Assembly (NCBI GenBank): GCA_017621885.1
Contig: JAGASD010000040.1
Coordinates: 1-64,000 of the forward strand
Direction of reading: 5' to 3'
Source of the DNA: Clostridia bacterium
GTDB taxonomy: Bacteria > Bacillota > Clostridia > Oscillospirales > Acutalibacteraceae
Length of the DNA: 64,000 nucleotides
Shown: positions 33,275 to 48,708 of the stretch, in pieces
How the letters are laid out: the number at the start of each line of letters is the position of its first letter
Position numbering within the stretch: position 1 is the first letter of the stretch
Made by a program: the position numbers and the translations under genes
The notes under the pieces: model-generated
Database searches by the model: none
Told to the model about the DNA's origin: nothing
What the model saw: only the letters and a program-made list of their open reading frames with translations

Positions 33275-35011
33275 TTAAGCTACAATGCGGTATTCTTGAG
33301 GATTTCTTCTTGCTTCTTCCATCATAGCAATAACTTCTTCCTCTGTCGGAATACAAATCATTCCGACACCTGTGAAATAAATATCTACTTTCACAAAACA
33401 GTGACCGCTTGATTTATCATTGTTATGAACCTCAATACGCTCAATAAGTGAATTGACAAGTGTCGGTGTAAGCTCCTGTATATCCGTCATTTCTCTGAAA
33501 GTACGAAGAAGCAACCTTAAGTCAACAGATTTCTGCTCAGCAGATTTCAATGTTTCCTGACCCTCCGAAACAGTTACGGTAAGCTCTTTTTGCTCTCGTT
33601 CATATTTTGACATCAGCTTTCTGTATCTGTCATCATCTATCCTGCCAAGAGCATTGTCTTCGTAAACCTTTTCAATAAGGCGGTCTAACTCTTTCATACG
33701 GATTTCACCGTCAGCAACTGTCTTTTTCAGCTTCTCGTATTCTGCTTTTCTCATTGCATCATTCTGCTTTGCAATCATATACAAAAAGACCTTTTCATTG
33801 TAGCGAATGAATTCTGCTAAATTTCGTATAGCTTCAAGTACAATTTTCTCAAGCACAACATTACGGATATAATGAATTTTGCAAGTACCGCCTCTGCCGT
33901 CCTTGTAGTTTGCACACCTGAAAAACTCCTGATTCTTACTCAGACTTTTAGCTGCACAGAAGTGTAATTTCGCACCGCAATCATAGCAATAAACCAAGCC
34001 CGAGAATAAACTTGTTCTACCTGTGGCAGTAGGTCTGCGACGGTTTTCACGGAGCTCCTGAACTCTTAACCACTTTTCTTCACTGATAATAGGTTCTTGC
34101 ATATCAGGGATTATCTGATAATCTTCTTTGGAATTATGAATTACCTTATGAACCTTGTAACTGACAGTAGTTGATTTAAAGTTTACAGCACAACCTGTGT
34201 ACTGTCTGTTCTCAAGAATGTGAACAACTGTCTTTTGGTCCCATCTGTAAGGATTAGCAGGAACAGGATTTGAATGTTTTCTGCCGACAGATTCATAATA
34301 CGCTGACGGAAGTAATATTTTTTCAGCTTCCAATATGCGAGCAATTTGCAAAGGACCTCGACCTGCAAGACACAAATCATATATTTTTCGTACAACCTCT
34401 GCCGCAGGTTCATCAATAAGCCATTTCTCTTTATCGGTTACGTCTTTTACATAACCAAAAGGTACAGTAGAAGATACTCGTTTACCGTTGTTAGCCTTTG
34501 ACTGCCATACAGCACGGATTTTCTTAGAGGTTTGTGCGGCATACCATTCATTAAAGATGTTATAGAACGGTAGCATCTCCATACCGTCACCTGTGGAACT
34601 GTTTACATTTTCCTGAATGGAAATGAATGTTACACCAAGCGACGGATATACAATTTGTGTTAATCTGCCAGCTTCGACCTGCTCACGACCAAAACGTGAC
34701 AGGTCTTTTACTATGATTCTGCAAATCTTACCTTCTTCGACCATTTGTTGCATTTGGTTAAATCCGCTTCTGTCAAAACTTGTACCCGAAATACCGTCAT
34801 CAATGAAAAACATTGTATTTTTGTATCCGTGTTTTTTACAGTAATCAAGTAAAATCTGTTTCTGATTGGATATACTGTTTGACTCATCTTCTCTGCCGTT
34901 CTTCTTTTTGGATTTGTCATCCTTTATATCTTCAACTGAAAGACGGCAGTAGAGAGCCGTAATTAATTCATCATTTATTGTTTGTCCTAAAATATTTGTT
35001 GCAGTTGTCAT
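33275..35011 (-). CDS. Large serine recombinase (TnpX-like)
   Basis: Site-specific recombinase that excises and integrates elements. The catalytic domain starts at ITALYCRLS (Ser25) and has the usual DDGISGTSFDR, RIIVKDLSRFGR and YPSLGVTFISIQENVNS motifs. It continues with the recombinase domain (PFGYVKD, ILENRQYTGCAVNF), a zinc ribbon (SGLVYCYDCGAKL, FRCANYK), a long coiled coil, and a C-terminal segment (LIERIEVHNNDKSS) like the DUF4368 tail. This architecture matches Tn4451 TnpX and relatives. The start is the ATG at complement 35011, after AAGGAG; the longer frame starts 15 codons earlier. TnpW, ParB-like and MobV genes lie upstream on the same strand. Confidence 0.93.
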   Translation of the reverse strand: MTTATNILGQTINDELITALYCRLSVEDIKDDKSKKKNGREDESNSISNQKQILLDYCKKHGYKNTMFFIDDGISGTSFDRSGFNQMQQMVEEGKICRIIVKDLSRFGREQVEAGRLTQIVYPSLGVTFISIQENVNSSTGDGMEMLPFYNIFNEWYAAQTSKKIRAVWQSKANNGKRVSSTVPFGYVKDVTDKEKWLIDEPAAEVVRKIYDLCLAGRGPLQIARILEAEKILLPSAYYESVGRKHSNPVPANPYRWDQKTVVHILENRQYTGCAVNFKSTTVSYKVHKVIHNSKEDYQIIPDMQEPIISEEKWLRVQELRENRRRPTATGRTSLFSGLVYCYDCGAKLHFCAAKSLSKNQEFFRCANYKDGRGGTCKIHYIRNVVLEKIVLEAIRNLAEFIRYNEKVFLYMIAKQNDAMRKAEYEKLKKTVADGEIRMKELDRLIEKVYEDNALGRIDDDRYRKLMSKYEREQKELTVTVSEGQETLKSAEQKSVDLRLLLRTFREMTDIQELTPTLVNSLIERIEVHNNDKSSGHCFVKVDIYFTGVGMICIPTEEEVIAMMEEARRNPQEYRIVA

Positions 35012-35096
35012 TAAATATTCTCCTTTCCGACAACCGGACATCGCAAGGATATTCACATTTTACAATGTCCGATTGTCTTTTTTCAAATGTGTGATA

Positions 35097-35378
35097 TTAC
35101 AATAATTTTTCTGATAAAATCAGTTCCTTGAACTGTTCAAAGATACACTGTCTGCCTTTGGGATTAAAGTGCGTAGAAACCTCATAGGTTGTACCGCCGA
35201 TCTTCATTTGGAAGGTTTCTTCACCGAAACGGCGTATTTTGCTACGATCAACAACAGCTTCATCACTGCGGGATGCCATAATATCTGAAATGCTTGAAAG
35301 CTCGTTTTCATCAATCGGCTCAGGCGGTACAACAAATATGGTTTTGTTATCGGGAAATATCTCTTTCAATTTTCTCAC
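35097..35378 (-). CDS. tnpW: Transposon-encoded protein TnpW
   Basis: 93-residue protein. The C-terminal half, with IGGTTYEVSTHFNPKGRQ and EQFKELILSE, is the conserved signature of TnpW proteins of Tn4451-type elements. Its role is not known; the genes travel with serine recombinase and Mob genes. Its start overlaps the end of the ParB-like gene by four bases, so both are probably translated from one transcript, and the recombinase gene follows downstream. Confidence 0.88.
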   Translation of the reverse strand: MRKLKEIFPDNKTIFVVPPEPIDENELSSISDIMASRSDEAVVDRSKIRRFGEETFQMKIGGTTYEVSTHFNPKGRQCIFEQFKELILSEKLL

Positions 35379-36316
35379 CTCGCATCCCTATCCTTATTTC
35401 TCTGTCGCTGAAGATATTTGTGATAATATTCCAAGGCTTTTAAGATATGCTCTTCTTTCTGTTGCTTGGTATAATTTTTACCGAAGAACTTATTGATACG
35501 TTCTTCAGGTATTTTTATAGCCTCTGCCTGATTAGGTTTAGGTGCAGTTAAAATTGCTAAAACCGTATCAGCATTAAGCTGTTTCTCTTCGGAAAGCTTT
35601 CGCATTTTCTGTGCCTGTGCAAGTGAGGGGGTTACCTCATCACTCTCATAGGCTTCAAAAATCATCTTCTGTTCCTCGGGAGTAAGATATGAAAGTTCAA
35701 CCGCAGGGCGCATTGCGATTCTGCCTTCATCCACAAGGTTAAGAATTGATTTTTCAAGATTAGTCAAACGGATATACCTTTTGATTTGGGTTGCACTGTC
35801 TTCGCTATCCTTTGAGATTTTTTCAGCAGAACTCAACTTTGGACCCACCGGGTCCGAAGTTAAATCCGTGCGTTTACCTTGCTTCTTCAGAGCATCCATT
35901 TTCATCTTGTAAGCAAAGGCTTTCTCGCTTGGCAGAATATGCTCTCGGTGCAGATTACTGTCAACGAGAATGATGTCTGCTTCTTCTTTGCTTATGTCCA
36001 AGACGACAACAGGAACCTCTGTCATTTCAAGCCTTGTTGCTGCAAGGTATCTTCTGTGTCCTGATACGATTTCAAATACATCTGCATTATCATCCTTTCG
36101 TACCATAAGAGGCTGTATAATACCGTTCTCACGGATACTGTCCTCCAACGGCTTCATATCTTCTTCACGACACTTGTACGGATTCTTGAAATTCGGTACA
36201 ATGCTTTGGGTTGACATTCTTACTATTTCTGTTGTTTGAGGCTTTACCGCCTCTGTTTCTTTGCTTTCTTCTGTTTTCTCAAACAGGGTGTTAATAAAAT
36301 TTTCTTCTTTATTCAT
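35375..36316 (-). CDS. ParB/Spo0J-like protein of the mobile element
   Basis: 313-residue ParB-type protein: an N-terminal ParB/Srx domain (NPYKCREEDMKPLEDSIRENGIIQPLMVR, split here only for reading, with GHRRYLAA and HREHILPSEKA), then a helix-turn-helix segment (TQIKRYIRLTNL). ParB domains bind CTP and load onto centromere-like sites. In mobile elements with no parA they probably serve in regulation or stabilisation rather than chromosome partition. No ParA is encoded here. It overlaps both neighbours (tnpW by 4 bases and the relaxase gene by 8), forming a compact operon. Confidence 0.88.
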   Translation of the reverse strand: MNKEENFINTLFEKTEESKETEAVKPQTTEIVRMSTQSIVPNFKNPYKCREEDMKPLEDSIRENGIIQPLMVRKDDNADVFEIVSGHRRYLAATRLEMTEVPVVVLDISKEEADIILVDSNLHREHILPSEKAFAYKMKMDALKKQGKRTDLTSDPVGPKLSSAEKISKDSEDSATQIKRYIRLTNLEKSILNLVDEGRIAMRPAVELSYLTPEEQKMIFEAYESDEVTPSLAQAQKMRKLSEEKQLNADTVLAILTAPKPNQAEAIKIPEERINKFFGKNYTKQQKEEHILKALEYYHKYLQRQRNKDRDAR

Positions 36317-37520
36317 TTAATTGCCTCTCTTTTCTGATATCAATATTTTTGTTAGGTTTCTCTTTTCGGACAGTTTTCAGCACATCCAATATAAATGCTT
36401 TTACTTTTTCAGGCATAAGCCTCAAAGCCTCAAGATACGGAGCACAGACTTGTTCGAGCTCATGAAGTCTTTCACTCAGTCTGTTTATACTGCTTTGCAA
36501 CTCCCAATTTCTTTTTCGGAGTCTTTCGTTTTCTCCCTCAAGGTCATAAATCTTGCTCCTTGCTGCAACGGATTGCTTTGCCATATTACTCAGGTCATTG
36601 AAATCTTCACTTGAAATTGTCACTTTGCCCGTAAGAGTTTTCTTGCCCATACTGTCTATCTCGTTGAATGTTTTATGCACGGTCTGAATTTCATCGTATC
36701 TGATTTCTTCTGTCTGTAAGCGTTCTTTGATTTCTTCAAGGCGTCTCTTATCCTGTTGTATTTCATATTGCAGACAAGACAGATGCTCAGCCGTACTGCC
36801 TTTTTCACCACGAATGAAATCATTGAAACCGGCTCTTTGCATATGATTGAAGAAGTCGTCCTGCAGGATACTGTAAGACAGAATCAGCACAGGCTTACCT
36901 TTTTCGTTGAAGATGACATTACCGTTTTCATCCACAGCCTGAGGTGACTTCCATTTCTTTGAGTGACTTATCTGATTGACGGTTTCTTTAACAGTACCCA
37001 CAAGTGATTTGTCCTTGCATCGCTTTGTCCATAGAATCTGTTTCTCCACAACAGGCAGAGCTACAAGGTGCATATGATAGTGATACACAGATTTCCCGTA
37101 CTGTTCCGTGAGAGCTACATTCAGTTCATCAGCGTGCATTACGGCAGAGATGATATTCTGTTCACCATACAAGGCAACTGCAAATTTGTAAGCTTCCTCA
37201 TAAAACTCTTTTGCATACTCATAACCGCCGTGTGTTTCAAAGTAGTCTGTGTTAACATCGAATATGACTTCATCAAAGACCTTTGCATCAGCTTTCAGAC
37301 CTCGCATACAGACTCTCTTTTCGGCTATGAGCTTATTTAGTTGTTCGTTATAGGTCAGTTCACTGCAACCTTTGAAATGCACATTCATATCACACCGAGC
37401 TGTATCAACATTCATATTGGTGTAAGACTCATTCTTTCTCTCGTTGTGCCTTTCACATTTACCGATTGTGCTTTGTGTATGAGTGACAACTCTTGCTACA
37501 CTGTAGTTTTTCTTAGACAT
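36309..37520 (-). CDS. MobV/Pre-type relaxase (TnpZ-like)
   Basis: Mobilisation protein that nicks oriT so that the element can be transferred by a helper conjugation system. The N-terminal half has the MobV motifs: SVARV at the start, the early HNERKN motif, and the metal-binding HYHMHLVALP in motif III, preceded by MHADE. The C-terminal half is a coiled coil (LEGENERLRKRNWELQ). At 403 residues it is typical. A perfect AAGGAGGT precedes the start. A candidate nic region lies about 55 bases upstream (37573-37603). No conjugation (type IV secretion) genes are in the window, so the element is mobilisable rather than self-transmissible. Confidence 0.92.
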   Translation of the reverse strand: MSKKNYSVARVVTHTQSTIGKCERHNERKNESYTNMNVDTARCDMNVHFKGCSELTYNEQLNKLIAEKRVCMRGLKADAKVFDEVIFDVNTDYFETHGGYEYAKEFYEEAYKFAVALYGEQNIISAVMHADELNVALTEQYGKSVYHYHMHLVALPVVEKQILWTKRCKDKSLVGTVKETVNQISHSKKWKSPQAVDENGNVIFNEKGKPVLILSYSILQDDFFNHMQRAGFNDFIRGEKGSTAEHLSCLQYEIQQDKRRLEEIKERLQTEEIRYDEIQTVHKTFNEIDSMGKKTLTGKVTISSEDFNDLSNMAKQSVAARSKIYDLEGENERLRKRNWELQSSINRLSERLHELEQVCAPYLEALRLMPEKVKAFILDVLKTVRKEKPNKNIDIRKERQLNE

Positions 37521-38496: not shown

Positions 38497-38982
38497 TTAT
38501 TTTTTGATTCCGTAAATTGTTCCTTTACCTTTAATTGTGTCAGTATTTCTTGGATTCAATTTTGAGAATGTAAGACGATATTTTCTTCCTTTTGTTACAT
38601 TAAAAGTTTTACTATCTGCCTTATTGGAATCATCTTTTGATTGTGTCATTGTTTTGAAAGTTGGATCTGTAGGATCATCCGTAACATCATATAAAGCAAT
38701 ATAATAATACGCTTTTGTATTTGTGCTTGTAATGAAACTTAGAGATATTGTATCAGATGTCGCGGTAAAATGGTCTGAATGCAATCTGGTTGAAAATGAA
38801 TATGTAAAAGAGCCATCTGCATTGATTCTAGGTTGAACAATGTTGCCTTCATCATCAAACCATACCAACTCAAACACTTGTTCATCTTCTTGTATGGTAT
38901 CACTTGCAAAAGCTAAATTTGTAGTATTCGCCATAAGAAAAATGGTTGCTAACAATAAAGTTATTATTCTTTTTAATTTCAT
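38497..38982 (-). CDS. Secreted protein of unknown function (cargo)
   Basis: 161 residues with a signal peptide (cleavage near FASDT). The mature part is a single beta-rich domain of about 125 residues with no cysteines; FSTRLHSDHFTATSDTISLSF and FNVTKGRKYRLTFSKLN suggest a jelly-roll or immunoglobulin-like sandwich. I do not recognise the family. It starts 20 bases after the VanZ-like gene and should be transcribed with it from the candidate ECF promoter at 39617-39645. Similar beta-rich secreted proteins occur elsewhere in this cluster. Confidence 0.75.
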   Translation of the reverse strand: MKLKRIITLLLATIFLMANTTNLAFASDTIQEDEQVFELVWFDDEGNIVQPRINADGSFTYSFSTRLHSDHFTATSDTISLSFITSTNTKAYYYIALYDVTDDPTDPTFKTMTQSKDDSNKADSKTFNVTKGRKYRLTFSKLNPRNTDTIKGKGTIYGIKK

Positions 38983-39002
38983 TTGTTTTTCAGCTCCTTA
39001 TA

Positions 39003-39566
39003 TTATAATGATAAAGAAAAATTAATTATGGCAATTATGCCAATAATACATAAAAGTATTTTGTTTGCTTTTTCTTTCTTTTTTTGAAAAAATGTATTAA
39101 ATAACAGGTACGATAAACATCCTAAAACAGCTCCTAAGGTATCACTTATTACATCGGTTATATCGGTAACACCTAAATAAAACACATATTGCATAACTTC
39201 AATAAAAATACTAACAAACAATGGAATCACAAATGAATAAACACATATTTTATTTTTTTTAGATATCATTTGTAATAAAAAACCAAAAGGAAAAAATAAG
39301 ATTGCGTTTAATATAACATCACGAAACATTCCGCTTCGATCAACATACCAATCAGAAAAGGGGATATAATTAATTGCTTGGGAGCGAAAACGATCTTGTA
39401 AAAAAATATCAGATAATGGAACATATTTAAACAAGGTTACATCAAAAACCAAATCGATATATGAGAGAAAAGAAAGTACAAATATCATTATAAATATTAT
39501 ATTCTTCCGATTTTTAGATAGATGAAACTTGAATTTTTTAGGATTTTCATTATTTTTTTGTAACAT
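39003..39566 (-). CDS. VanZ family membrane protein (cargo)
   Basis: 187 residues with about five hydrophobic segments. NAILFFPFGFLLQMIS, then FIEVMQYVFYLGVTDITDVISDTLGAVLGCLSY is the conserved VanZ core. VanZ-like proteins in Firmicutes alter the envelope and in some cases raise resistance to teicoplanin or lipoglycopeptides; there are no vanHAX genes here, so a glycopeptide role is not implied. A candidate ECF promoter (P2) ends about 50 bases upstream, and a secreted protein gene follows on the same transcript. Confidence 0.88.
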   Translation of the reverse strand: MLQKNNENPKKFKFHLSKNRKNIIFIMIFVLSFLSYIDLVFDVTLFKYVPLSDIFLQDRFRSQAINYIPFSDWYVDRSGMFRDVILNAILFFPFGFLLQMISKKNKICVYSFVIPLFVSIFIEVMQYVFYLGVTDITDVISDTLGAVLGCLSYLLFNTFFQKKKEKANKILLCIIGIIAIINFSLSL

Positions 39567-39616
39567 TATTAGGCTCCTTTTCTTCCTACAATAATATTCA
39601 ATGTTGCTTCTAAAAA

Positions 39617-39645
39617 TATAGTCTTGAAATTTTATGATTCTTACA
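39617..39645 (-). promoter_or_regulatory. Candidate ECF sigma promoter P2
   Basis: On the minus strand TGTAAGA, 15 bases, GACTATA. The same two heptamers with the same spacing occur at 42759-42787 and 44282-44310, all upstream of cargo genes. Confidence 0.72.
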
Positions 39646-39715
39646 AAAAATGTTACATAAAAAATTCATTTAAATTTTGTGTGTTTTTATATATCTTTAG
39701 TTGTCAGTAAAAAAC

Positions 39716-39748
39716 GAGGTGATACATAATCGTACCACCTCAAAAAAA
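39716..39748 (-). terminator. Terminator of the 41.1-39.9 kb cargo genes
   Basis: GAGGTG / CACCTC stem with flanking A/T runs, 3' of the gene ending at 39862. Confidence 0.7.
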
Positions 39749-39861
39749 TGAATCATAGGTCTAAATCTAACTAATTTTATTTGCTTTAATTTATTAGTTT
39801 GAATTTTTATGATATCAATTATCTTTTGCTTTTTATCTTAGCATTGGCATCTCGCTTTTTA

Positions 39862-40308
39862 TTATTGTGTTTCTTGAACAACATACAATTTTTCGCTTGA
39901 CTTACAAAAAATAATTGTATCATTGTTTTTCTCTAAAACACACAACTGGAAATCTTCGGCAGTATCAATTTTCATAGACTCTTCTACTTCAATTTTGGTT
40001 AGTAATGAGTCTATTTTCTCTTTAACTTCTGATTTGTTTTTCAAAACAAACTCAACATTTTCAATAGGTTCTCCGTTATACTCATAAATGCTGTACCTAA
40101 TGCCATCACCTGTAAAACCTATATCACTTTTAGCAGAATAGATTTCTTTAAAACCATTTGGAATATCTATTTTCCACATTTTTTCATAAACATAAGTATT
40201 TGAGTTTACTCTGGAAGTACCGACAAAAATCAACACAACTACTATAAGAAAACCAAGTAATATTACTATCAACTTTTTATAATTTATTCTCATATTATTT
40301 ACCGACAT
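39862..40308 (-). CDS. Membrane-anchored protein of unknown function (cargo)
   Basis: 148 residues: short cytoplasmic tail, one membrane helix (about 12-30) and an extracellular domain of about 115 residues with mixed alpha/beta pattern (WKIDIPNGFKEIYSA, YSIYEYNGEPIENVEF). The end is strand-rich (DTIIFCKSSEKLYVVQ). I do not recognise the family. It begins 13 bases after the preceding secreted protein gene, so the two should be co-expressed and may act together at the cell surface. Confidence 0.7.
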   Translation of the reverse strand: MSVNNMRINYKKLIVILLGFLIVVVLIFVGTSRVNSNTYVYEKMWKIDIPNGFKEIYSAKSDIGFTGDGIRYSIYEYNGEPIENVEFVLKNKSEVKEKIDSLLTKIEVEESMKIDTAEDFQLCVLEKNNDTIIFCKSSEKLYVVQETQ

Positions 40309-40321
40309 TTTGCATTAAAAC

Positions 40322-41077
40322 TTAAATGTAAACTCCCATTTCAATTTTAAAAGGAACAATAACTCCTGCTTCTTGTGCCTTGTACATTGTATTCACGGCA
40401 ACTCCCTGAATGCTTGAGTAATCAGCTACTGCATAATCATATCTGTCATATATCAAGAACATATGATGGTTTGTATCGCGATAATAAGTAAAACAGTGAA
40501 TTGCATAGTAAAAATCATCATCTACCGTTTTTCCTGTTTTCTCGAAGCTTGAACTGCCACTTCTGCTACCACTCTCATACAACCTTTTATATTCTGTCGT
40601 TTTAGAAATAAGAGTTTTATATACCGGATTATAAAATGAATCCAGTACTTCATTTTCTTTAGCGTGAGTTAACAATTCTGCTGACAAATAATAGTCTTTG
40701 GAATTAAAATAGGCAATTACTGCGGAAACTGCAGGAGAATAAAGCAAATGAAAATTACCATATGGAATCAATAATGTTCCGTTCTGATAACTTTGATACT
40801 CTTCTATCATATCCTCCACGGAAGATATCTGATTTATAATCTGTTCTCTTTCCACTAAATTTGATGTCTCTGCCAAAAGTCTAACCAAACGCAATTTCAT
40901 TTCGTTGAGTTCAGCAATAACGTTTGTTCCATTAGCAACAAGTTCACTTTCGATTGATGATACAGACTGATTTACAGACATAATTTCATTGTTGAGTGCC
41001 GTCTCTTCAGCATATACGCTTAACGGAAGGCTCAACAACATAATAACAACTAAAAGAACACTAACTATTTTTTTCAT
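40322..41077 (-). CDS. Secreted protein with coiled coil (cargo)
   Basis: 251 residues with a signal peptide (cleavage near VYAEE). Residues about 25-95 are a coiled coil (SVSSIESELVANGTNV, LLAETSNLVEREQIIN), and residues about 100-250 form a compact domain with aromatic segments (DDDFYYAIHCFTYYRDTN, HHMFLIYDRYDY). The family is not recognised. The gene has AGGAGG before its start. A 19-base sequence in its leader (41137-41155) is nearly identical to one upstream of the damaged gene at 41619 (42696-42714), hinting at shared control. Confidence 0.72.
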   Translation of the reverse strand: MKKIVSVLLVVIMLLSLPLSVYAEETALNNEIMSVNQSVSSIESELVANGTNVIAELNEMKLRLVRLLAETSNLVEREQIINQISSVEDMIEEYQSYQNGTLLIPYGNFHLLYSPAVSAVIAYFNSKDYYLSAELLTHAKENEVLDSFYNPVYKTLISKTTEYKRLYESGSRSGSSSFEKTGKTVDDDFYYAIHCFTYYRDTNHHMFLIYDRYDYAVADYSSIQGVAVNTMYKAQEAGVIVPFKIEMGVYI

Positions 41078-41136
41078 ATTATGGACCTCCTTTTGATATT
41101 TTCAATTAGAAATTTTAACTTGTAGGAATCTTAATT

Positions 41137-41155
41137 CCACATTGGAATCACCTTA
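41137..41155 (-). promoter_or_regulatory. Leader motif copy 1
   Basis: CCACATTGGAATCACCTTA (plus-strand reading); 17 of 19 bases match the copy at 42696-42714. Both lie 60-100 bases before cargo genes on the minus strand. Function unknown. Confidence 0.45.
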
Positions 41156-41178
41156 GCTTTTTATTATATTTCTTGAAA

Positions 41179-41601
41179 TTAAAATTTTCTTTTTTTATAA
41201 ATGTCTGATAATAAGTAAGTTATAATTAACAATGCAGCAAAAATTGATGAATAAATTATCCAACTTTGAATATCAATGCGATTTAACCAAATTCCATCAA
41301 CGCATCTAATATTACCTAAAAAAGGAAGAACAACACCAAACGGAAGAATAAGTGCTAAAGACACTAAATTTATCAAAAAAGTACATTTCTTCTGCAATGA
41401 ACATCTTTTTGAATTCTCTTCATTATATGTTTTTGCGATTGTGAAAATAGATATAGAAACAAGCCATAATGCGATGCCAAGAAAAAATGCTTGTAAACTT
41501 CGTTCTTTTTCTATACCAATATAATAGGAAACAAGTGATGCGACAATACTAACAGATATAGAAAGCATTTGCAAAACTTTTCTCATTATATCATTCAACA
41601 T
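41179..41601 (-). CDS. Four-helix membrane protein (cargo)
   Basis: 140 residues with four hydrophobic helices: LQMLSISVSIVASLVSYYIG, LQAFFLGIALWLVSISIFTI, FLINLVSLALILPFGVVLPF and WIIYSSIFAALLIITYLL. The tail is basic. I do not recognise a family; in size and topology it resembles small immunity-like or accessory membrane proteins in bacteriocin and lantibiotic loci, but nothing more specific is visible. The start is the ATG at complement 41601, right after AGGAGGGG. Its 5' end overlaps or abuts the 3' end of the damaged gene at 41619. Confidence 0.65.
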   Translation of the reverse strand: MLNDIMRKVLQMLSISVSIVASLVSYYIGIEKERSLQAFFLGIALWLVSISIFTIAKTYNEENSKRCSLQKKCTFLINLVSLALILPFGVVLPFLGNIRCVDGIWLNRIDIQSWIIYSSIFAALLIITYLLSDIYKKRKF

Positions 41602-41618
41602 AATTCCCCTCCTAAAAA

Positions 41619-42659
41619 TCAACTGTGATTTTTAAAACTTAAAGTTACAGCTGCTTCATTATTGATAGTGTAAATTCTTGCTCCGCCACTTACTCTAAAT
41701 GAACTAACATATAACTTAACAGTCGTGTTAGTAGTTGTTCCTGAACTATTAACAACCAAAATAGATGGATGTATTTTCCATGATTCGTTTTCTATAGAAG
41801 AATTGGGAGTGGATTTCCATGTTTTAATATATCTTTCACCAAATTGATTATTAATTGTCTGACCTTTTGGATTATACGAATATGATGTGGTTGTAGTAAT
41901 CGTGCTCTTTCCGTCAGAAGAAATACCAGTTCCTATAGATGTGGTCACTGTGCTATTAGAATCTCCTGTTAGAAATGTTTCATCAAGAATATCTGTATTG
42001 CCGCTTGTTACTTCCATATTATATGTATAGTATTTAACATATTTATTGTTTAATCCACTCGCTGTAACTATGGAATATACATTATCATATGTTTTGGTTC
42101 CTACTGTTTTAACCTTAATTGCATAGCCTAATATTTTAATTGAACCTAGTTTTGACCAATCTGTGAGACCATTTGAACTGCTATATTTATAAGTTATTCC
42201 CGTTCCGCCAGCAATTCCTTTTTTATAAAAGTATGTAAAAAGACTTGCATCTTTAAAAGATGAACCAATTGCGGTTGATGTTTGCAACTTTATTTTCTGT
42301 TCATCAGAAATGCTACCAAGAAATTCTAAATCCGAAATATCATTCTGGATATCGTTATACATATCATGCATATCAAGATTTTCGTTAAGCACCGTTGGTT
42401 CAATCTCAACATCTTCTAAATCTATAATATCTGCTACAACAGGAGTAATCATATAATCATCACCATATGATTGAATATATGTTCCAAGATAAACATCTGC
42501 ATCTTCAAAATTTGATGTATTTCCATCAAAAATTTCTAGTATTTCCTCGGGATTATCATCAGTAACATAGAGGGATGTGCCGTTGTCTAACAGTTCCTTT
42601 GCAGGTTCCAAAATATTACTAGAAATGTACAGGCTATTTTTTTAAATATCATTACTCAT
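41619..42659 (-). pseudogene. Damaged beta-rich secreted-protein gene (cargo)
   Basis: An open frame of about 340 codons lacks a sound start. The only in-frame ATG upstream (complement 42659) is cut by TAA at its sixth codon; the next possible start is a TTG at complement 42611 with no ribosome site. In another frame an ATG at complement 42652 encodes a signal-peptide-like start (MIFKKIACTFLVIF), but stops soon after. So the gene probably once encoded an exported protein and lost its N-terminus by a small indel. The body is Ser/Thr-rich and beta-like (STVTTSIGTGISSDG, TTTNTTVKLYVSSF). A candidate ECF promoter (P3) lies upstream. Confidence 0.6.
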
Positions 42660-42695
42660 CACATCTTTATAATATTTGTTTAAAAATCAATTTAA

Positions 42696-42714
42696 CCACA
42701 TTGGTATCACCGTA
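42696..42714 (-). promoter_or_regulatory. Leader motif copy 2
   Basis: CCACATTGGTATCACCGTA (plus-strand reading), matching copy 1 (41137-41155) at 17 of 19 bases. It lies between P3 and the damaged gene. Confidence 0.45.
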
Positions 42715-42758
42715 TCCTTTACATGGTACAATATATATTAGAATTTGCTTTTCAATAA

Positions 42759-42787
42759 TATAGTCTTAAAAATTTGAAAATCTTACA
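42759..42787 (-). promoter_or_regulatory. Candidate ECF sigma promoter P3
   Basis: TGTAAGA-N15-GACTATA on the minus strand, identical in both elements and spacing to P1 and P2. It stands upstream of the damaged gene and the membrane and secreted genes that follow. Confidence 0.72.
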
Positions 42788-42845
42788 AAGTCAAATTTAC
42801 TAAATATTTCATCTTTTCTTTGTTGACATTGCTATACATCATATC

Positions 42846-42890
42846 AAAAAAGTCCCGTGCAATTCTAAAAAGAAGAGTACGAGACTTTTT
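42846..42890 (-). terminator. Terminator of the sigma/anti-sigma unit
   Basis: AAAAAGTCCCGTGC / GTACGAGACTTTTT stem, one mismatch, 3' of the gene ending at 42938. Between it and 42612 lie P3 and leader motif copy 2; no gene is seen. Confidence 0.75.
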
Positions 42891-42937
42891 CATTAATATT
42901 ATTTATTCAATAATATAATAATTGTTTTTTAAATTAA

Positions 42938-43450
42938 TTAAAAGGCCAATGATGATGTAACATTATAACTCGTTTCTGTATCCTTAAAAACTAAAAGTTT
43001 GGGTTTTTCAGCATAGTGTTCACAAATAACACGATATGTATAACCTTTTGGTGCGGATATGGATTTTTCAAAAGTTTTTGAATTAGATTCATTATATTGG
43101 TCGTAATAGCAATAGGAAGAATAATCTGTCCATGTGCCGTTAATCAATCTCTGCAATTTGATATAAGTAAAGCCACATTTTGTTATATCAGTTGAACCCG
43201 AAGTTTTTGCAGTAATTATTAACTTATCTGTGGTTTTGGCTAATTTCAAAGATTTACTTGTTATTAGACCTGTTGCCAACAAACTAACATCGGCGTTGTT
43301 ATTCGTATTGTATAGTCCATATACTTCTTCGATAATATCATCTTTAATTATAAGTGTATCCTCACCAACTGAATCTAATGCAAAAGCATTAATTGATATC
43401 ATACTGAGAATTGATAATAAAGCTAAACATATTGATATAATTTTTTTCAT
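42938..43450 (-). CDS. Secreted protein of unknown function (cargo)
   Basis: 170 residues with a signal peptide (cleavage near NAFALD). A short acidic pro-like segment (about 25-55) is followed by a beta-sandwich-like domain (ITAKTSGSTDITKCGFTYIKLQ, RLINGTWTDYSSY, GYTYRVICEHY) with a few cysteines. The pattern is like small secreted beta-rich proteins of gut Firmicutes whose role is not known. It starts 12 bases after the anti-sigma gene, so it is under the same promoter (P1). It is probably the output of the sigma system closest to the regulator. Confidence 0.75.
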   Translation of the reverse strand: MKKIISICLALLSILSMISINAFALDSVGEDTLIIKDDIIEEVYGLYNTNNNADVSLLATGLITSKSLKLAKTTDKLIITAKTSGSTDITKCGFTYIKLQRLINGTWTDYSSYCYYDQYNESNSKTFEKSISAPKGYTYRVICEHYAEKPKLLVFKDTETSYNVTSSLAF

Positions 43451-43462
43451 TATAAACGCTCC

Positions 43463-44260
43463 TTATTTTATGGTTTTTGCAAACTCTATAGCTTCATCTA
43501 AGTTCATTGGAATCTGAATAAAATAAATAGATAAACCATCTCTATATGTAATCGCCGCTGATTTGTTTTGCATAAAACAATATACAGTTATATTTCCGAT
43601 TTCTATTTCTTCAATATTACTTGTAACATTAAGAAATTCTACATCAGGCACTATTTCTTCTATTGCATATTCACTTATTTGAATATTGCCAAGTTTGTTT
43701 TTGTACTCAAACATAATATTAACAGAGTTAATATATTCAAATGTTTCATACTCCATCTTTGTAATATTATATTTATCAGAGAAAAATGCTTCTGGTAATA
43801 AAACTTCACTAAATCCATTATCAGCAAGTTCCTTGGCAAGTTCTGTGCCGAGAAGCTGGTATTCATCAGCTTTGTCATCGGTTTTGTCAAAATTAATACG
43901 AATATAATCATTATAAAGTTCAACAATACCATCAAACAAATTACCATCAAACACAACTGCAGATACAGATAATGTGCCAACGAGTAATACTGAAATTGCT
44001 GCAGCAATAGCGATAAACTTTTTGAATTTGAGTTTTATGTGTTTACCATGGGGATCACCATTACCTTTCTTTTCTTCTGTAGCAGGTGTTTCAACTTCGA
44101 GATTGCTTAATTTGTCTAAACAATACTCAATAAGCTCTGTATCCATTTCTTCTTCGGACTTCTCCATCTCTTCATCAATTATTTTGTTAAGGTTTTCTTC
44201 TAATGAACCGTTAAGTGATTTGTCGTTGATGAAGGATAAAAACTCTTTATCTGTAAGCAT
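43463..44260 (-). CDS. Membrane anti-sigma factor-like protein (cargo)
   Basis: 265 residues: an acidic N-terminal cytoplasmic domain (1-70: DKEFLSFINDKSLNGSLEENLN), a linker, one membrane helix (about 82-100: FIAIAAAISVLLVGTLSVSAVV) and an extracellular domain of about 160 residues ending in IYFIQIPMNLDEAIEFAKTI, like the DUF4367 domains found on Clostridial anti-sigma factors. It lies right after the ECF sigma gene, and its own start is 20-odd bases from candidate promoter P1. It probably holds the sigma factor at the membrane until an outside signal releases it; this is inferred from position and topology. Confidence 0.82.
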   Translation of the reverse strand: MLTDKEFLSFINDKSLNGSLEENLNKIIDEEMEKSEEEMDTELIEYCLDKLSNLEVETPATEEKKGNGDPHGKHIKLKFKKFIAIAAAISVLLVGTLSVSAVVFDGNLFDGIVELYNDYIRINFDKTDDKADEYQLLGTELAKELADNGFSEVLLPEAFFSDKYNITKMEYETFEYINSVNIMFEYKNKLGNIQISEYAIEEIVPDVEFLNVTSNIEEIEIGNITVYCFMQNKSAAITYRDGLSIYFIQIPMNLDEAIEFAKTIK

Positions 44261-44281
44261 TATTTATTCTACCTCCAACTA

Positions 44282-44310
44282 TATAGTCTGACATATTTAG
44301 ATTTCTTACA
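44282..44310 (-). promoter_or_regulatory. Candidate ECF sigma promoter P1
   Basis: TGTAAGA-N15-GACTATA on the minus strand, in the gap between the sigma gene and the anti-sigma gene. Only about 20 bases separate the -10 element from the start, leaving room for a short leader with GGAGG. Confidence 0.72.
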
Positions 44311-44325
44311 AAAATTTATAAATTT

Positions 44326-44856
44326 TTATTCGTTTAATACTTTTTCAATTAACATTTTTGTTTTCTGTTTTAATCTAAATAGTTTCTGATAAATGTTATT
44401 CTCTGTAGTATTATGTTCTTTAGCAATTACGGAAATGGATTTGTTTAATGTATATCTGTCATATAGTAATTGCTGTTCTTTATCATCAAGCATATTAATA
44501 ACTTTTTCTTTAAGAACCGGAATTTGCTCATCTTCAATTGTGAAATATTCATCATTGACTACACCATAATATGAGCTATCAAAATTTTCAGATTCCAAAG
44601 GGACTATTTTTTCTGATTCTTTTTTTGCTTGTGTATAGATGTCTTTTATTTTATTGTTTACTACTTTTGTTAACCATGCTTTTGGATATTCTATTGTTTT
44701 TCCTTTATCCAAAGCATCAGACAAATCAAGAAAAACATCCTGAACGCAATCATCAACATAATCAGGTAAACTTTTAAGTTTATATGTACATAGTTTACGA
44801 ATATACGGCTCATGCTCTTGCCATAACTCGTTTACTATTTTTTTATTATAATCCAT
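44326..44856 (-). CDS. ECF-type RNA polymerase sigma factor (cargo)
   Basis: 176-residue sigma-70 family protein with regions 2 and 4 only. Region 2 is visible in CVQDVFLDLSDALD and YPKAWLTKVVNNKIKDIY; region 4 in LDDKEQQLLYDRYTLNKSISVIAKEHNTTENNIYQKLFRLKQK, whose helix-turn-helix reads the -35 element. It is unlikely to be a house-keeping sigma. The anti-sigma gene follows. Three matching candidate promoters lie within the same cargo, so the sigma factor probably controls the local secreted and membrane genes. Its own promoter is not clear; a TATAAT sits about 110 bases upstream. Confidence 0.9.
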   Translation of the reverse strand: MDYNKKIVNELWQEHEPYIRKLCTYKLKSLPDYVDDCVQDVFLDLSDALDKGKTIEYPKAWLTKVVNNKIKDIYTQAKKESEKIVPLESENFDSSYYGVVNDEYFTIEDEQIPVLKEKVINMLDDKEQQLLYDRYTLNKSISVIAKEHNTTENNIYQKLFRLKQKTKMLIEKVLNE

Positions 44857-45161: not shown

Positions 45162-45317
45162 TTATTTTGGTTCGATAATCTTCAATTCTACATATAAAAC
45201 TTCACAATTAGGAGAGTGTTGCCTCTTCATAAGAATAACATTGAAATTATCAGTTAATAACTTCCAAAAGTCAGCTGAGTATTCATTAGGCATTTCAATA
45301 GTATAGTTTATATTCAT
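45162..45317 (-). CDS. 51-residue protein coupled to tnpV
   Basis: A short open frame of 51 codons begins with an ATG overlapping the tnpV stop (ATGA overlap), a usual sign of translational coupling. The product (MNINYTIEMPNEYSADFWKL at the start, ending VLYVELKIIEPK) is soluble and slightly acidic. The family is not recognised. A terminator follows 28 bases later, so the tnpV transcript fits exactly these two genes. The overlap and the terminator support a real gene. Confidence 0.65.
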   Translation of the reverse strand: MNINYTIEMPNEYSADFWKLLTDNFNVILMKRQHSPNCEVLYVELKIIEPK

Positions 45318-45679
45318 ACATATATCAGCTCGTTACATATTATCTCATTTGCTCTTGACTCAATGTTTTGCATACTACATACCCACTCCATCTGATTATC
45401 TTCTTTCAGTTGCTCGGTTACGCCTTCAGCCACTTTTATCTGCTCTACGAGAGTATCAAACATATCTCGTGCCTGATTTTCCACCTCGGCACAGTGCTGA
45501 TAAAGTTTTCCTTGAGTAAGTAGTGTTGTAAACATCACTTTCTTGTGTTTTTCAAGAAAATCTTTATATATCGTTCCCCATTTACCCAGAGAAATATTTG
45601 CTTCTTCGGGCGGCAAGATAAGGTTTGGAATGTTAAAATCTCCAACACGGCGATAACTGATAGAATTTCTGTTTGACAT
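45314..45679 (-). CDS. tnpV: Transposon-encoded protein TnpV
   Basis: 121-residue TnpV-family protein from the ATG at complement 45679, with AAAGGAGG upstream. Conserved parts are SYRRVGDFNIPNLILP near the start, GKWGTIYKDFLEKHK, TTLLTQGKLYQHCAEVE and the C-terminal VTEQLKEDNQMEWVCSMQN. TnpV proteins travel with Tn4451-type elements and have been suspected to act as excision or regulatory factors; the true role is unproven. Its presence 8 kb from the relaxase shows that the cargo in between belongs to this type of element. Confidence 0.9.
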   Translation of the reverse strand: MSNRNSISYRRVGDFNIPNLILPPEEANISLGKWGTIYKDFLEKHKKVMFTTLLTQGKLYQHCAEVENQARDMFDTLVEQIKVAEGVTEQLKEDNQMEWVCSMQNIESRANEIICNELIYV

Positions 45680-45757
45680 AAAAAGTCCTCCTTTAAATTT
45701 TGTGCTTTCATTGTACAGAATTAAAGAGACTTTGTCGAATGTGCAAATATAAGAAAA

Positions 45758-45781
45758 AGAGAGAAGCCGAAACTTCTCTCT
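45758..45781 (-). terminator. Terminator of the 47.9-45.9 kb genes
   Basis: AGAGAGAAG / CTTCTCTCT hairpin with T's after it on the minus strand, about 110 bases 3' of the gene ending at 45887. Confidence 0.75.
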
Positions 45782-45886
45782 AATTTGCTTTCCTTGCAAC
45801 GTCCATAAATTAGTATTTTAAAATTACTGCCTTATGTGGCGTCAGCAAACGGCACCCCCTTTTAATTTTTTCAAGAATGAATTTTA

Positions 45887-46576
45887 TCATCTGTTCCTTA
45901 ACTTTAACAAAACATTGTCAATTTCTTGTTTCTTTCCTGTTAAAGAAGCTAATGTCTCTTTATATTCTTTTGATTTCCTTTGTCTTGCAGTATGAAGACT
46001 TCTGAATATAAACTCTAACAAAACTGCACCAAAATAAAATACAAAGCCGTTCAACAAGGTAACGATACCAATTATAATAATGATTGTACTGTATTTATCC
46101 CACAATTTTAAAAGCTTAGGGCGACTATCATATCTTTCGTAAAATTCTGCATATTCTTTTTCGTAATATTGCCACTGCCTTGCTACAGAATCACATTTGT
46201 TGCCAAGCTCAACACAGTCCGGCAACTCTAATTTTTTATAGCCTCGAGAAATATAAAAAAGCTCGTCAGGATTAGAGAAAGACAGCTTATCTAAACAAAG
46301 CTTACATTTCTCTTCTGAATCCTTGTATTTTTCGGGAGACAAAAAACCCTCATATACAGTTATAAAATCATTATTTGTTTTTGCTCGAGTAAGCTTTTCT
46401 GAAAGATCTGTATACGCCATTTCAATATTAGTGTCGCTATGTTCGATAACACTATCAATATTGATGCCATACTGATACTCCAGAATATCTTTTCCTGTTT
46501 CTTTTGAATTTTTAATTGCTTTATTTGCAATACTGTTCAAATCAATACCATCGGGATTAAATATATCCTTTTCCAT
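45887..46576 (-). CDS. Membrane protein of unknown function
   Basis: 229 residues. The N-terminal 160 residues are soluble and mostly helical with a few cysteines (EKCKLCLDK), followed by a hydrophobic stretch at about 168-192 (IIIIIGIVTLLNGFVFYFG) that may form one or two membrane helices, and a basic C-terminal tail. No family is recognised. It begins 11 bases after the gene at 46588, so the two and the DUF4234-like gene appear to form one operon. Its cytoplasmic domain may work with the neighbouring protein at the membrane. Confidence 0.65.
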   Translation of the reverse strand: MEKDIFNPDGIDLNSIANKAIKNSKETGKDILEYQYGINIDSVIEHSDTNIEMAYTDLSEKLTRAKTNNDFITVYEGFLSPEKYKDSEEKCKLCLDKLSFSNPDELFYISRGYKKLELPDCVELGNKCDSVARQWQYYEKEYAEFYERYDSRPKLLKLWDKYSTIIIIIGIVTLLNGFVFYFGAVLLEFIFRSLHTARQRKSKEYKETLASLTGKKQEIDNVLLKLRNR

Positions 46577-46587
46577 TTTATAACCCT

Positions 46588-47532
46588 TTATGTTGTAAAT
46601 ATTATTTTAGGTGCGATATTGCTCATAAAACTGTCTTTATTTTCAGCTTTTTCGTTTTTTCGCTCTTTTCGTGCTTTAAGCTTTGTGATAATTCCGCCGG
46701 GTTGCTTGATGAAAACAGGTAAATCCCCGGTAACAACACTTTTAACGCCACCAAAAATGCCTGTGGAATCACTTGCCTGATTGTGTGCGGCAATATTTAC
46801 CGTATAAGGAACACCGTTATATGTAAAAGTAAAATCATAATAAGGGAAAAAGAATAATCCCATACTACACGAGCTTTCGATTATTTCATATTGTGTATCT
46901 TTTACAGAATAAGAGCATTTCTCGTAACGCGATTTTAAGTCATATTCTATATTGCGATTAACTGCAACATCTATCTTTCCTGTGGGCGGTTCAGAAGCAT
47001 CTGTATTTAAGTTATCAACACATTTATCAATTGCTCTTGCCACAAGCTCATTGTTTCGTACTCTAAAATCAGAAATGTCTTTTATAAGAATACCCACATC
47101 TATGCTTTCATCAGGCCATAATTTTTCATCTGTATAATCAGAGCCGGATGAACCAAAAACTATGAAACAGCCCGTTCCGTTTGTTCTGTCCATAAATTTA
47201 TTGGTCACTTGAGTGTTGGTATACCTTGTATCTCCGTAATCCTCGTACATAGATTCAAAAAATCCGCTGCTTGTGTTTCTCTTATTATCTCTGTATGCCG
47301 TTGTATCCGCACCCAAAGATGAGGTTGAATTATATTCACTTTGAGTTGTTATTTCCACAAGTGCAGTATAATTATAATCAGCATAATAAGTTAAGAGAGG
47401 GCAGTATTTCAATTTTGCCACAGGTATGTTTCCGTCAAAATTAAATATATCTGCCGGTGTTGAATTTTGAGAACAATATTTAGCAAAAATATCAATTGCT
47501 TCCCGTTGTGTTACTTCAGGTAACAACAGCAT
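46588..47532 (-). CDS. Soluble protein of unknown function
   Basis: 314 residues, no signal peptide or membrane segment. The start LPEVTQREAIDIFAKY and the run TPADIFNFDGNIPVAKLKYCPLLTYYADYNYT give the look of a family of zinc-ribbon-linked proteins that often follow membrane genes, but no zinc ribbon is present here. The middle (residues 60-200) is a polar, Thr/Ser/Asp-rich region; the C-terminus is basic (KLKARKERKNEK). Function unknown. It sits between the DUF4234-like gene and another membrane protein on the same strand. Confidence 0.6.
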   Translation of the reverse strand: MLLLPEVTQREAIDIFAKYCSQNSTPADIFNFDGNIPVAKLKYCPLLTYYADYNYTALVEITTQSEYNSTSSLGADTTAYRDNKRNTSSGFFESMYEDYGDTRYTNTQVTNKFMDRTNGTGCFIVFGSSGSDYTDEKLWPDESIDVGILIKDISDFRVRNNELVARAIDKCVDNLNTDASEPPTGKIDVAVNRNIEYDLKSRYEKCSYSVKDTQYEIIESSCSMGLFFFPYYDFTFTYNGVPYTVNIAAHNQASDSTGIFGGVKSVVTGDLPVFIKQPGGIITKLKARKERKNEKAENKDSFMSNIAPKIIFTT

Positions 47533-47547
47533 AAAAACACTTCCAAA

Positions 47548-47928
47548 TTAATTATTTTTATACGCATAGCTTGTTTCGTATCCCTCAATAAGCTTGTTGT
47601 GATTTTTAATGGGAATCATATAAGAAATAATCGGAAGATACATTGCCACAAGAGCAAAAATAACCGGTGATTTTATTGAAATTTCAACATTATATGTTTT
47701 TGCTAAAGCCAAAGCCTTTTTATGATATGTGTAGCATACAAAAAACGCAAAAAGCGAACCGGTGCAAACACTTAATAACAAATATAAAACAAAATTCATA
47801 TTGTTATTGTTTGTTTGATTTTCCATTTTTTTGATGTCATTATACATACACCATATAACATACCAGTTATACACACCACCTGTAATGATGCCTAAAATCC
47901 ATATTTTTTTCCAATCTCGTTTTACCAT
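47548..47928 (-). CDS. DUF4234-like membrane protein
   Basis: 126 residues with three hydrophobic segments (about 9-28, 44-66 and 88-107). The start KRDWKKIWILGIITGGVYNWYVIW, with the tryptophan/tyrosine pattern followed by a DIKKM loop, is typical of DUF4234-type small membrane proteins. The function is unknown. It is the first gene of the leftward operon and diverges from the XRE regulator at 48082; a palindrome between them suggests shared control. Confidence 0.7.
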   Translation of the reverse strand: MVKRDWKKIWILGIITGGVYNWYVIWCMYNDIKKMENQTNNNNMNFVLYLLLSVCTGSLFAFFVCYTYHKKALALAKTYNVEISIKSPVIFALVAMYLPIISYMIPIKNHNKLIEGYETSYAYKNN

Positions 47929-48009
47929 AATAAAAACCTCCTTTTATATGCACAAGGATTTCACATCCTGTACAAACACAATAATACATTATTTAATATT
48001 GTATGTCAA

Positions 48010-48034
48010 CAAAATAATAATATTTATTATTTTG
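48010..48034. promoter_or_regulatory. Operator-like palindrome between divergent genes
   Basis: CAAAATAATA-ATATT-TATTATTTTG, 10-base perfect arms, in the gap between the DUF4234-like gene and the XRE regulator; a likely site for the latter. Confidence 0.55.
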
Positions 48035-48081
48035 TATTTCGCCCTTTCACAATATATAATATTGTTAAGGAAGGTGATAAT

Positions 48082-48399
48082 ATGTCTTCAGAATATGAAG
48101 AATGTTTTGTGCAGAAACTTATCGAATTTCGAGAGAAAAAAGGGGTTTCCGCCCGTTCAATGAGCTTGTCCATAGGACAAAACGAAAATTATATTAATCA
48201 AATAGAAAACAAAAAAACTTTTCCTTCAATGCAGAGTTTCTTTTATATCTGCGATTATCTGAATGTAACGCCTTATGATTTTTTTGAGCCTTATAATAAA
48301 CCACAAAAAGAAATGCTTGCGCTTTTAGAAAATTTGCAAAAATTAGATGCAGAAGATTTCAAAAGTATATATACAATAGTTAAAAGTCTTACAAAATAA
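48082..48399 (+). CDS. XRE family helix-turn-helix regulator
   Basis: 105-residue protein with a Cro/CI-type domain in the first 70 residues: KLIEFREKKGVSARSMSLSIGQNENYINQIENKKTFP contains helices 2-4 of the motif, followed by MQSFFYICDYLNVTPYDFF. The C-terminal part (LALLENLQKLDAEDFKSIYT) probably dimerises. A good AAGGAAGG ribosome site precedes it. It diverges from the three-gene operon at 45.9-47.9 kb and probably represses it and itself. Its 3' end overlaps the open tail of the truncated secreted-protein gene on the other strand. Confidence 0.88.
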   Translation: MSSEYEECFVQKLIEFREKKGVSARSMSLSIGQNENYINQIENKKTFPSMQSFFYICDYLNVTPYDFFEPYNKPQKEMLALLENLQKLDAEDFKSIYTIVKSLTK

Positions 48400-48708
48400 A
48401 GTCCTCTCTACACTACAATGCAGAGGGAAATTAAATCTTCCGCAATACGCTTCAATTTCTATTTCAAAGAAGCTTTCGCCTGAGTGCTCAATTTCATAGT
48501 AATAATAATCGGGAGCCTTATCTGAGCCATAATCTTCCTCATAGATATACTCTCCGCTTGAATCCACACCGAGATTTTCCATCGCAAGATCGGATTCAAA
48601 GCTGAAGCCCTTACCCTCATACTTATATTGTCCGGCAAATTCACTTACAGCAAGTAAGCCGCACATAAGCACACTCAATAAAGCTGCCGACACTTTTTTC
48701 ATAAACAT
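48343..48708 (-). pseudogene. Truncated secreted-protein gene, possible junction
   Basis: 121 codons with a signal peptide (cleavage near VSEFA). Residues to about 97 (YYYYEIEHSGES, IEIEAYCGRFNF) match the N-terminal half of the larger protein at 48825-49811 (YYFYEFEYYEGDS, LQIEEYFGRVSL), which continues for 200 residues more. Here the match stops near 48425 and the frame runs on into sequence opposite the XRE gene, with unlike composition. So it is a paralogue broken at about 48420, which may be a junction of the foreign block. The missing 3' part is not found near 33.0 kb. Confidence 0.6.

Follow-up and report, generated by a model that had tools for sequence, protein, structure and literature searches.

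A putative ECF-sigma-controlled mobile array of exchangeable toxin/immunity-type cassettes in uncultured Clostridia

The 64,000-nucleotide (nt) stretch considered here (the window; contig JAGASD010000040.1 of assembly GCA_017621885.1, a Clostridia bacterium of the Acutalibacteraceae) contains a Tn4451-like element whose cargo opens with genes for an extracytoplasmic function (ECF) sigma factor and a membrane anti-sigma-like protein, followed by seven more genes on the same strand (Table 1). All of these gene calls, made in a first-pass annotation, are confirmed, and the three sites it named are exact minus-strand copies of TGTAAGA-N15-GACTATA. Its statement that each site precedes a cargo gene holds for the sites at 42759 and 39617, but the site at 44282 precedes the anti-sigma gene and not cargo proper. 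The sigma factor has sigma-70 regions 2 and 4 only, as expected of the ECF group, with matches to TIGR02937 (65.5 bits, cutoff 42.9), Sigma70_r2 (30 bits, cutoff 24), and Sigma70_r4_2 (22.8 bits, E 7e-5, below the cutoff of 25.7). Site 1 lies 15 nt past the sigma gene and 21 nt ahead of the anti-sigma start codon. The sigma gene itself is indeed free of the motif upstream, the best match within 400 nt having 4 of 14 positions wrong, and the same applies to all 21 loci inspected (best match with 3-5 mismatches within 400 nt, or less at contig starts). The array can therefore be called self-regulated insofar as the anti-sigma gene has the motif, but not as regards the sigma gene.

Table 1. Features of the array and its element in the window, with leader elements of related loci (L numbers; aa, amino acids).
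Feature	Position	Strand	Basis
ECF sigma factor gene, 176 aa	44326..44856	(-)	family-model matches
Promoter site 1, TGTAAGA-N15-GACTATA	44282..44310	(-)	exact match
Membrane anti-sigma-like gene	43463..44260	(-)	role inferred from position
c2, 170-aa secreted-type beta-sandwich protein, conserved core	42938..43450	(-)	relatives, hydropathy, structure model
Promoter site 2, head of cassette 1	42759..42787	(-)	exact match
Leader element GGTGATACCAATG and 4-codon reading frame	42687..42711	(-)	leader alignment
c17, 330 aa, presumably secreted, with an out-of-frame signal-peptide part	41619..42611	(-)	gene call
c18, four-span membrane protein, candidate immunity protein for c17	41179..41622	(-)	hydropathy; pairing inferred
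Second leader element, no promoter, at edge of c9-c10 block	41131..41152	(-)	
c9, 251-aa secreted-type protein	40322..41077	(-)	gene call, hydropathy
c10, 148-aa anchored protein, candidate partner of c9	39862..40308	(-)	hydropathy
Terminator-like hairpin between cassettes 1 and 2	39715..39742	(-)	weak: 2 found in region, 1.8 expected by chance
Promoter site 3, head of cassette 2	39617..39645	(-)	exact match
c19, VanZ-like membrane protein, candidate immunity protein	39003..39566	(-)	PF04892, 70.8 bits (cutoff 30.1)
c20, 161 aa, small, signal-peptide-like start by eye, candidate toxin	38497..38982	(-)	gene call; no clear family
Mob_Pre relaxase of element	36309..37520	(-)	PF01076, 134.9 bits
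ParB-like gene of element	35375..36316	(-)	PF02195
TnpW	35097..35378	(-)	PF14202
Large serine recombinase, TnpX type	33275..35056	(-)	Resolvase, Recombinase, Zn ribbon, DUF4368
TnpV	45314..45799	(-)	PF14198, 134.9 bits
Shared GGTGANNCCRATG leader element opening a 2-12-codon frame	L042 4944, L043 14106, L044 12135/14056/16025		
Shared GGTGANNCCRATG leader element, continued	L048 2291, L050 6758, window 42699-42711 and 41140-41152		

The anti-sigma-like protein of the window combines a conserved N-terminus, one hydrophobic span, and an outer domain with weak matches to DUF4179 and DUF4367, both below cutoff. Among 19 sequences compared (the window and 18 loci), a related protein adjoins the sigma factor in 18; a single hydrophobic span is present in 13 of 14 such proteins examined, the fourteenth (L112) having two close spans. 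Sigma gene, motif, and anti-sigma gene form a conserved core, to which c2 is added in 14 of the 19; c2 has an N-terminal hydrophobic stretch and a structure model with a predicted local distance difference test score (pLDDT) of 77.8.

A genome-wide scan, proposed with the first annotation as a check, finds the exact motif three times in the 2.63 Mb genome, always at the window locus and nowhere else. Near matches (1 with one mismatch and 24 with two) bring the total at two or fewer mismatches to 28, against 40 (21 + 19) for a reversed-pattern control; since loose matches are no more common than in the control, only exact matches are informative. The family, represented by 398 genomes, yields 23 exact matches, spread over 13 genomes, and 11 matches to the reversed control (counted from the table of matches). 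Sigma arrays account for 21 of the 23: 19 share a contig with a sigma gene, one lies in an array fragment bordering a contig end (G342, L114), and one, at the edge of contig 15 of G018, is a promoter and leader without cassette genes. The other two fall within unrelated reading frames. A promoter with a leader element, and no cassette gene behind it, was seen in L113 (reverse strand, 279-380), where the next gene, at 690, is by eye a transporter of chromosomal type. In 22 sequences totalling 338,881 bases, a set that includes some near-copies, the sigma strand has 39 exact sites and the opposite strand none, the reversed pattern is absent, and the strand of the motif is that of the following gene at all 39. 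Relaxing the -35 element gives 46 sites with 28 distinct 29-mers, in which the spacers vary while TGTAA and GACTATA(T) are constant; the 29-mer of site 3 also precedes the VanZ gene of L112. The motif starts 8-45 nt past the sigma stop codon in 19 loci measured, and in L118 it overlaps the stop codon (by eye).

Conservation of the motif follows the sigma clade. When used to search named genomes, the sigma alignment yields 29 loci, 18 of them 42-93% identical, and all 17 full-length related loci have the motif between the sigma and anti-sigma genes with a spacing of 15 (-35 element TGTAAGA in 13, TGTAACA in 2, and TGTAATT in 2), with the near-copies L037/L038, L042/L043, and window/L034 among the loci. 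Further copies lie downstream in 12 of the 17, the copy of L041 being at a contig end with no gene in sight; contig ends cut off the view of possible further sites in L035, L041, and L045. Among the sigma relatives from the family search, the motif directly follows the sigma gene in 13 of the 14 full-length ones with E <= 1.9e-46 (one additional relative, G381, is cut), and none of 15 scanned from the 25 weaker sigma matches has it alongside. In L047 (10001-11945), the eighteenth close locus, the sigma gene is truncated after residue 68 and immediately followed by a serine recombinase gene, as also in G381, and cassette cargo has apparently been lost.

The strongest evidence that the sigma factor reads these promoters is a natural region swap. 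In sigma factors, region 2 reads the -10 element and region 4 the -35 element. Loci L048 and L050 carry a mosaic sigma factor that, compared with those of L043, L044, and L052, is identical at 66-70 of 73 positions (90-96%) in region 2 and at 17-18 of 58 (29-31%) in region 4, over column ranges that we picked ourselves. In DNA, L048 and L044 share 93.5% identity through the initial 308 bases of the comparison, after which blastn gives no match until within the anti-sigma gene. Both mosaic loci keep GACTATA and have TGTAATT as the -35 element at both of their sites, with 16 nt spacing at the cassette sites; the -10 element is thus kept where region 2 is retained, and the -35 element is changed where region 4 is swapped. 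One recognition-helix residue is Y in all 14 TGTAAGA sigma factors compared, R in all three with TGTAACA or CGTAACA, and Q in both with TGTAATT. On a tree of 19 sigma factors, in which near-copies favour a low count and support is poor for 8 of 16 inner branches, the three -35 labels require two changes, the minimum, which none of 200 shuffles equalled. L044 and L050 share genome bin RGIG4155, which, if the bin is right, holds arrays with different -35 types (TGTAAGA and TGTAATT) that are possibly mutually insulated regulons. The earlier proposal that the sigma factor reads this promoter is thus supported at the level of sequence, by 17 of 17 clade loci, 0 of 15 weaker sigma matches, and the covariation of the -35 element with region 4.

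Comparison of arrays shows that the units behind this promoter have been exchanged and reordered, with breaks near the promoter. Positions 13971-16112 of L044 match 12051-14194 of L043 at 99.3%, compared with 95.2% for the core; the block is third in the L044 array and second in that of L043 (core counted as first), and the match extends beyond the next promoter, after which the arrays hold different genes. Another block (L044 12034-13491, L043 14004-15464) matches at 96.9%, and the shared blocks start 18-36 nt ahead of the motif. The c9-c10 block of the window matches that of L036 at 95.0% (core 86.1%) and starts 8 bases ahead of the second, promoterless leader element. Promoter regions of different cassettes have common stretches of 56-194 columns with 79-95% identity, which suggests homologous recombination there. 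Of 12 cassette leaders aligned, seven contain (A/G)GTGA(G/T)(T/A)CC(A/G)ATG with a stop within 2-12 codons, three more have looser forms (L036 at 14674, L037, L039), and two lack the element (L052 at 7029, L036 at 12062). The strict matches, 19 in all, are confined to the sigma strand: 13 in leaders, four in one homologous stretch of anti-sigma genes, which may be due to chance, and two at the second element of the window and its copy in L034. The GGTGANNCCRATG element is perhaps a translational leader or an exchange point.

Arrays hold 0-3 motif-headed units behind the core, and 15 different units were counted in the window and its relatives, some with near-copies of individual genes in common. 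The first gene has a signal-peptide-like start, judged by a simple hydropathy rule, in 11 of the 15, and in a twelfth (c11 of L037) such a start is joined by a second hydrophobic stretch; the remaining heads encode a VanZ protein (window), a radical S-adenosylmethionine (SAM) protein (L037), and, in the window, c17, whose start is broken. The first-pass description of seven secreted, anchored, or membrane products stands except for c17, which has no in-frame signal peptide; a signal-peptide-like stretch is visible by eye in another frame just upstream (window 42570-42700), and L034 has the same 330-aa frame. The start of c20 is missed by the 17-residue hydropathy rule and flagged with a 13-residue window; a c20 homologue behind the VanZ gene of L112 (12130-12350) is decayed, with early stops. 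A weak match links c18 to the PADLOC 4TM effector model (E 0.0024), and c10 has a weak match to Sigma_reg_N, below cutoff. VanZ-like proteins also occur in L042 and L044 (77.8 and 65.1 bits on the model that gives 70.8 for c19), and small secreted proteins adjoin VanZ in the arrays. No recognisable bacteriocin gene is present among the window cargo, and no recognised toxin domain in its pairs.

Comparison with the cargo of related arrays, also proposed at the outset, is more informative. In L048 a protein of the mediterrocin family (NF052268, 57.3 bits, cutoff 40), the only related cargo protein to match a bacteriocin model in an NCBIfam scan, adjoins a DUF1430-like protein (27.4 bits, cutoff 28.2) and an Lcn972-type ATP-binding cassette (ABC) protein (227.5 bits, cutoff 254.85). 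L036 encodes a secreted HNH nuclease (24 bits, cutoff 21.4) followed by a SUKH-1 protein (SMI1_KNR4, 26.4 bits, cutoff 25.4), and L037 has a set resembling those for ribosomally synthesized and post-translationally modified peptides (RiPPs), with radical SAM (85.3 bits, cutoff 29.5) and PqqD (40.8 bits, cutoff 23.4) proteins, a small peptide, and an ABC exporter. Other matches are to Amidase_6 in L044 (80.1 bits, cutoff 23.2), to RicinB_lectin_2 (52.8 and 51.8 bits, cutoff 25.6) and Peptidase_M10 (20.2 and 25.1 bits, cutoff 24) in L037 and L039, respectively, and, below cutoff, to a C39 peptidase in L036 (20.1 bits, cutoff 24) and a Zn phospholipase C in L052 (18.1 bits, cutoff 26.8); c9, c13, c17, c84, c191, and c200 have no family match above cutoff. 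A profile search with c4 matched 2 of 295 genomes of the order, one of them partially. In G662, of another family, a c4-type secreted protein gene stands outside any array observed and immediately before a VanZ-like gene (vanZ-F 2e-6, below cutoff), with no sigma gene recognised in the 3.5 kb of sequence covered.

The arrays are associated with mobile genes. TnpV and TnpW are genes of the Tn4451 family. In the window TnpV lies on one side of the array, and the Mob_Pre relaxase, ParB-like gene, TnpW, and large serine recombinase lie on the other; the TnpX-type recombinase, TnpV, TnpW, and mobilization gene expected of a Tn4451-type element are all present, in keeping with the initial assignment. 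As to an integron-type cassette array, gene calls and family scans recognised no integrase within the window array, no search being made for attC sites. Two of five genus relatives with the flank read (L130, L133) have, after the fucose isomerase gene, a gene for a secreted protein; its window homologue, 35% identical, breaks off at 48427 (E 4e-5), with a paralogue adjacent. The fucose isomerase stretch is found in 19 of 21 genus genomes, and the 45.9-48.4 kb stretch in four, the window's own included and the other three over its end only; its genes (45887-48399) have no DNA match in the other 17. As a weak estimate, the foreign stretch may span ~33.0-48.4 kb; exact element ends were not found. 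The interval from TnpV to the truncated host-type gene contains three further genes and a helix-turn-helix gene (45887-48399). Next to the array in L043 and L050 is a MobA/MobL relaxase, so more than one kind of element carries the arrays, and at L039 no such gene was recognised (by eye). Of the 18 close named loci, 11 are traced by title to the rectum, cecum, or colon of sheep, goat, or deer, and the other seven titles name no source; the window bacterium is probably also of gut origin. Array pieces occur in contigs binned as Treponema (L034, 97.8% identical to the window across 7.9 kb) and as Alphaproteobacteria (L048), labels that may reflect binning errors or distant transfer.

Taken together, these observations make it likely that the locus is an ECF-sigma-controlled, exchangeable mobile array of toxin/immunity-type cassettes. 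From transcription and signal to killing, immunity pairing, and exchange, the proposed mechanism would run as follows. The sigma gene would be transcribed from a different promoter, as the motif is absent upstream, and its product would be held by the membrane anti-sigma protein until an envelope or extracellular signal releases it. The freed sigma factor would read TGTAAGA-N15-GACTATA ahead of the anti-sigma gene, providing negative feedback together with secreted c2, and ahead of each cassette; with the anti-sigma gene under the sigma promoter and the sigma gene not, expression might come as a short pulse after the signal. Each cassette would comprise a promoter, a leader, at least one secreted effector, and usually a membrane or other partner guarding the producer, and its likeliest purpose would be to kill or inhibit competing bacteria. 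With exchange breakpoints beside the shared promoter, an incoming cassette would immediately come under the resident sigma factor. There is about an even chance that the arrays go further and act as a sigma-keyed platform, in which a promoter read only by the array's own sigma factor serves as a common header, cassettes are expressed only where region 4 matches, and region 4/-35 swaps split arrays into orthogonal compatibility groups.

Several points weigh against the antagonistic array. The antagonism and immunity function suggested at first sight is the leading reading from the related arrays, but family-model scans match none of the window's own secreted proteins to a known toxin. The DUF1430 and Lcn972 scores of L048 fall short of their cutoffs, and the HNH and SUKH-1 scores of L036 barely exceed theirs; the ricin-lectin metalloprotease, Amidase_6, and weak phospholipase C and C39 matches could be directed at host or food polymers. 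G253, a clade member at E 1.9e-46, has no motif. L040, L046, and L049, seen well past the core, have the anti-sigma promoter only and no motif-headed cassette, and the ancestral role may accordingly have been other than antagonism. Finally, the named related loci are all metagenome bins by title, mostly on short contigs.

The rival that survives best, although we regard it as unlikely, is a mobile envelope-stress or surface-remodelling regulon, in which damage to the cell wall would activate the sigma factor, and the secreted, lectin-like, and VanZ-like products would shield or alter the surface of the producer itself. It could draw on the resemblance of c19 to glycopeptide-resistance VanZ (vanZ-A, E 1.7e-16, far below the model cutoff), on the predicted beta-sandwich or jelly-roll folds of c2 and c4, which are like those of many binding domains, and on the forms with the anti-sigma promoter only; a stress response should keep its cargo constant, however, whereas here even close arrays differ in their cargo, among which are a curated bacteriocin family, a nuclease and its immunity-type partner, and the RiPP-like set. 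Arrays devoted to interaction with the animal host, or to the breakdown of food or mucus polymers, are less probable still: the ricin-type lectin with metalloprotease, Amidase_6, the weak phospholipase C, and the gut sources named in titles would suit such a role, but the immunity-type partners, bacteriocin family, and RiPP-like genes would not. That the sites bind another regulator, or are operators or housekeeping promoters with the sigma factor a passenger, is very improbable, for although the sigma gene has no site of its own, the -35/-10 geometry with 15 (16) nt, to which a housekeeping promoter with 17 nt spacing would not fit (by eye), the strand agreement at 39 of 39 exact sites, and the covariation of -35 with region 4 while -10 stays with region 2 all argue against it.

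The toxin/immunity-type array has partial parallels in known systems. UviA of Clostridium perfringens is a plasmid-borne sigma factor driving bacteriocin genes, of a different sigma family and not known to control a cassette array. In the microbisporicin cluster, to which planosporicin is named as a parallel, the ECF sigma factor MibX is paired with the membrane anti-sigma protein MibW, several promoters share GAACC-N15-GCTAC, and MibX is thought to be released by the lantibiotic or by wall stress (PMC4973701). The likeness lies in an ECF consensus with 15 nt spacing at several operons, present here as a sequence motif only; by analogy, wall stress is a possible signal, a role in which c2 or the effectors may serve here. 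As described there, MibX/MibW is actinobacterial, with one product, one cluster, the sigma gene under the consensus, and the additional regulator MibR (PMC4973701), whereas the present arrays encode many unrelated products in exchangeable units, mostly beside mobile genes in Clostridia, with no consensus at the sigma gene (0 of 21 loci) and no recognisable bacteriocin gene in the window array. The pneumococcal blp region likewise has variable bacteriocin and immunity operons with sites for one local regulator, but BlpR is a pheromone-driven response regulator, the products are small peptides with a dedicated transporter, and as far as described no Tn4451-like element is involved (PMC6422914). 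The mediterrocin cluster of Mediterraneibacter gnavus is close to the L048 cassette (bacteriocin, DUF1430 protein, ABC protein, and mobile genes); its "transcription regulator" is of unnamed kind, and the word "sigma" does not occur in the main text (PMC12345188). The element itself resembles Tn4451-type integrative mobilizable elements in its large serine recombinase and MobV-type mobilization, and differs in that a sigma-controlled array takes the place of a chloramphenicol resistance gene (PMC5704250).

The sigma factor and its promoter provide a sequence handle for finding antibacterial proteins and their antidotes in uncultured Clostridia, any gene behind the promoter being a candidate for one or the other, and the natural region swap offers a test of the separate reading of -35 and -10 elements by ECF sigma factors. 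The arrays suggest a simple way for mobile DNA to assemble secreted proteins into an exchangeable set under common control, the shared promoter possibly serving both as a recombination arm and as a regulatory key.

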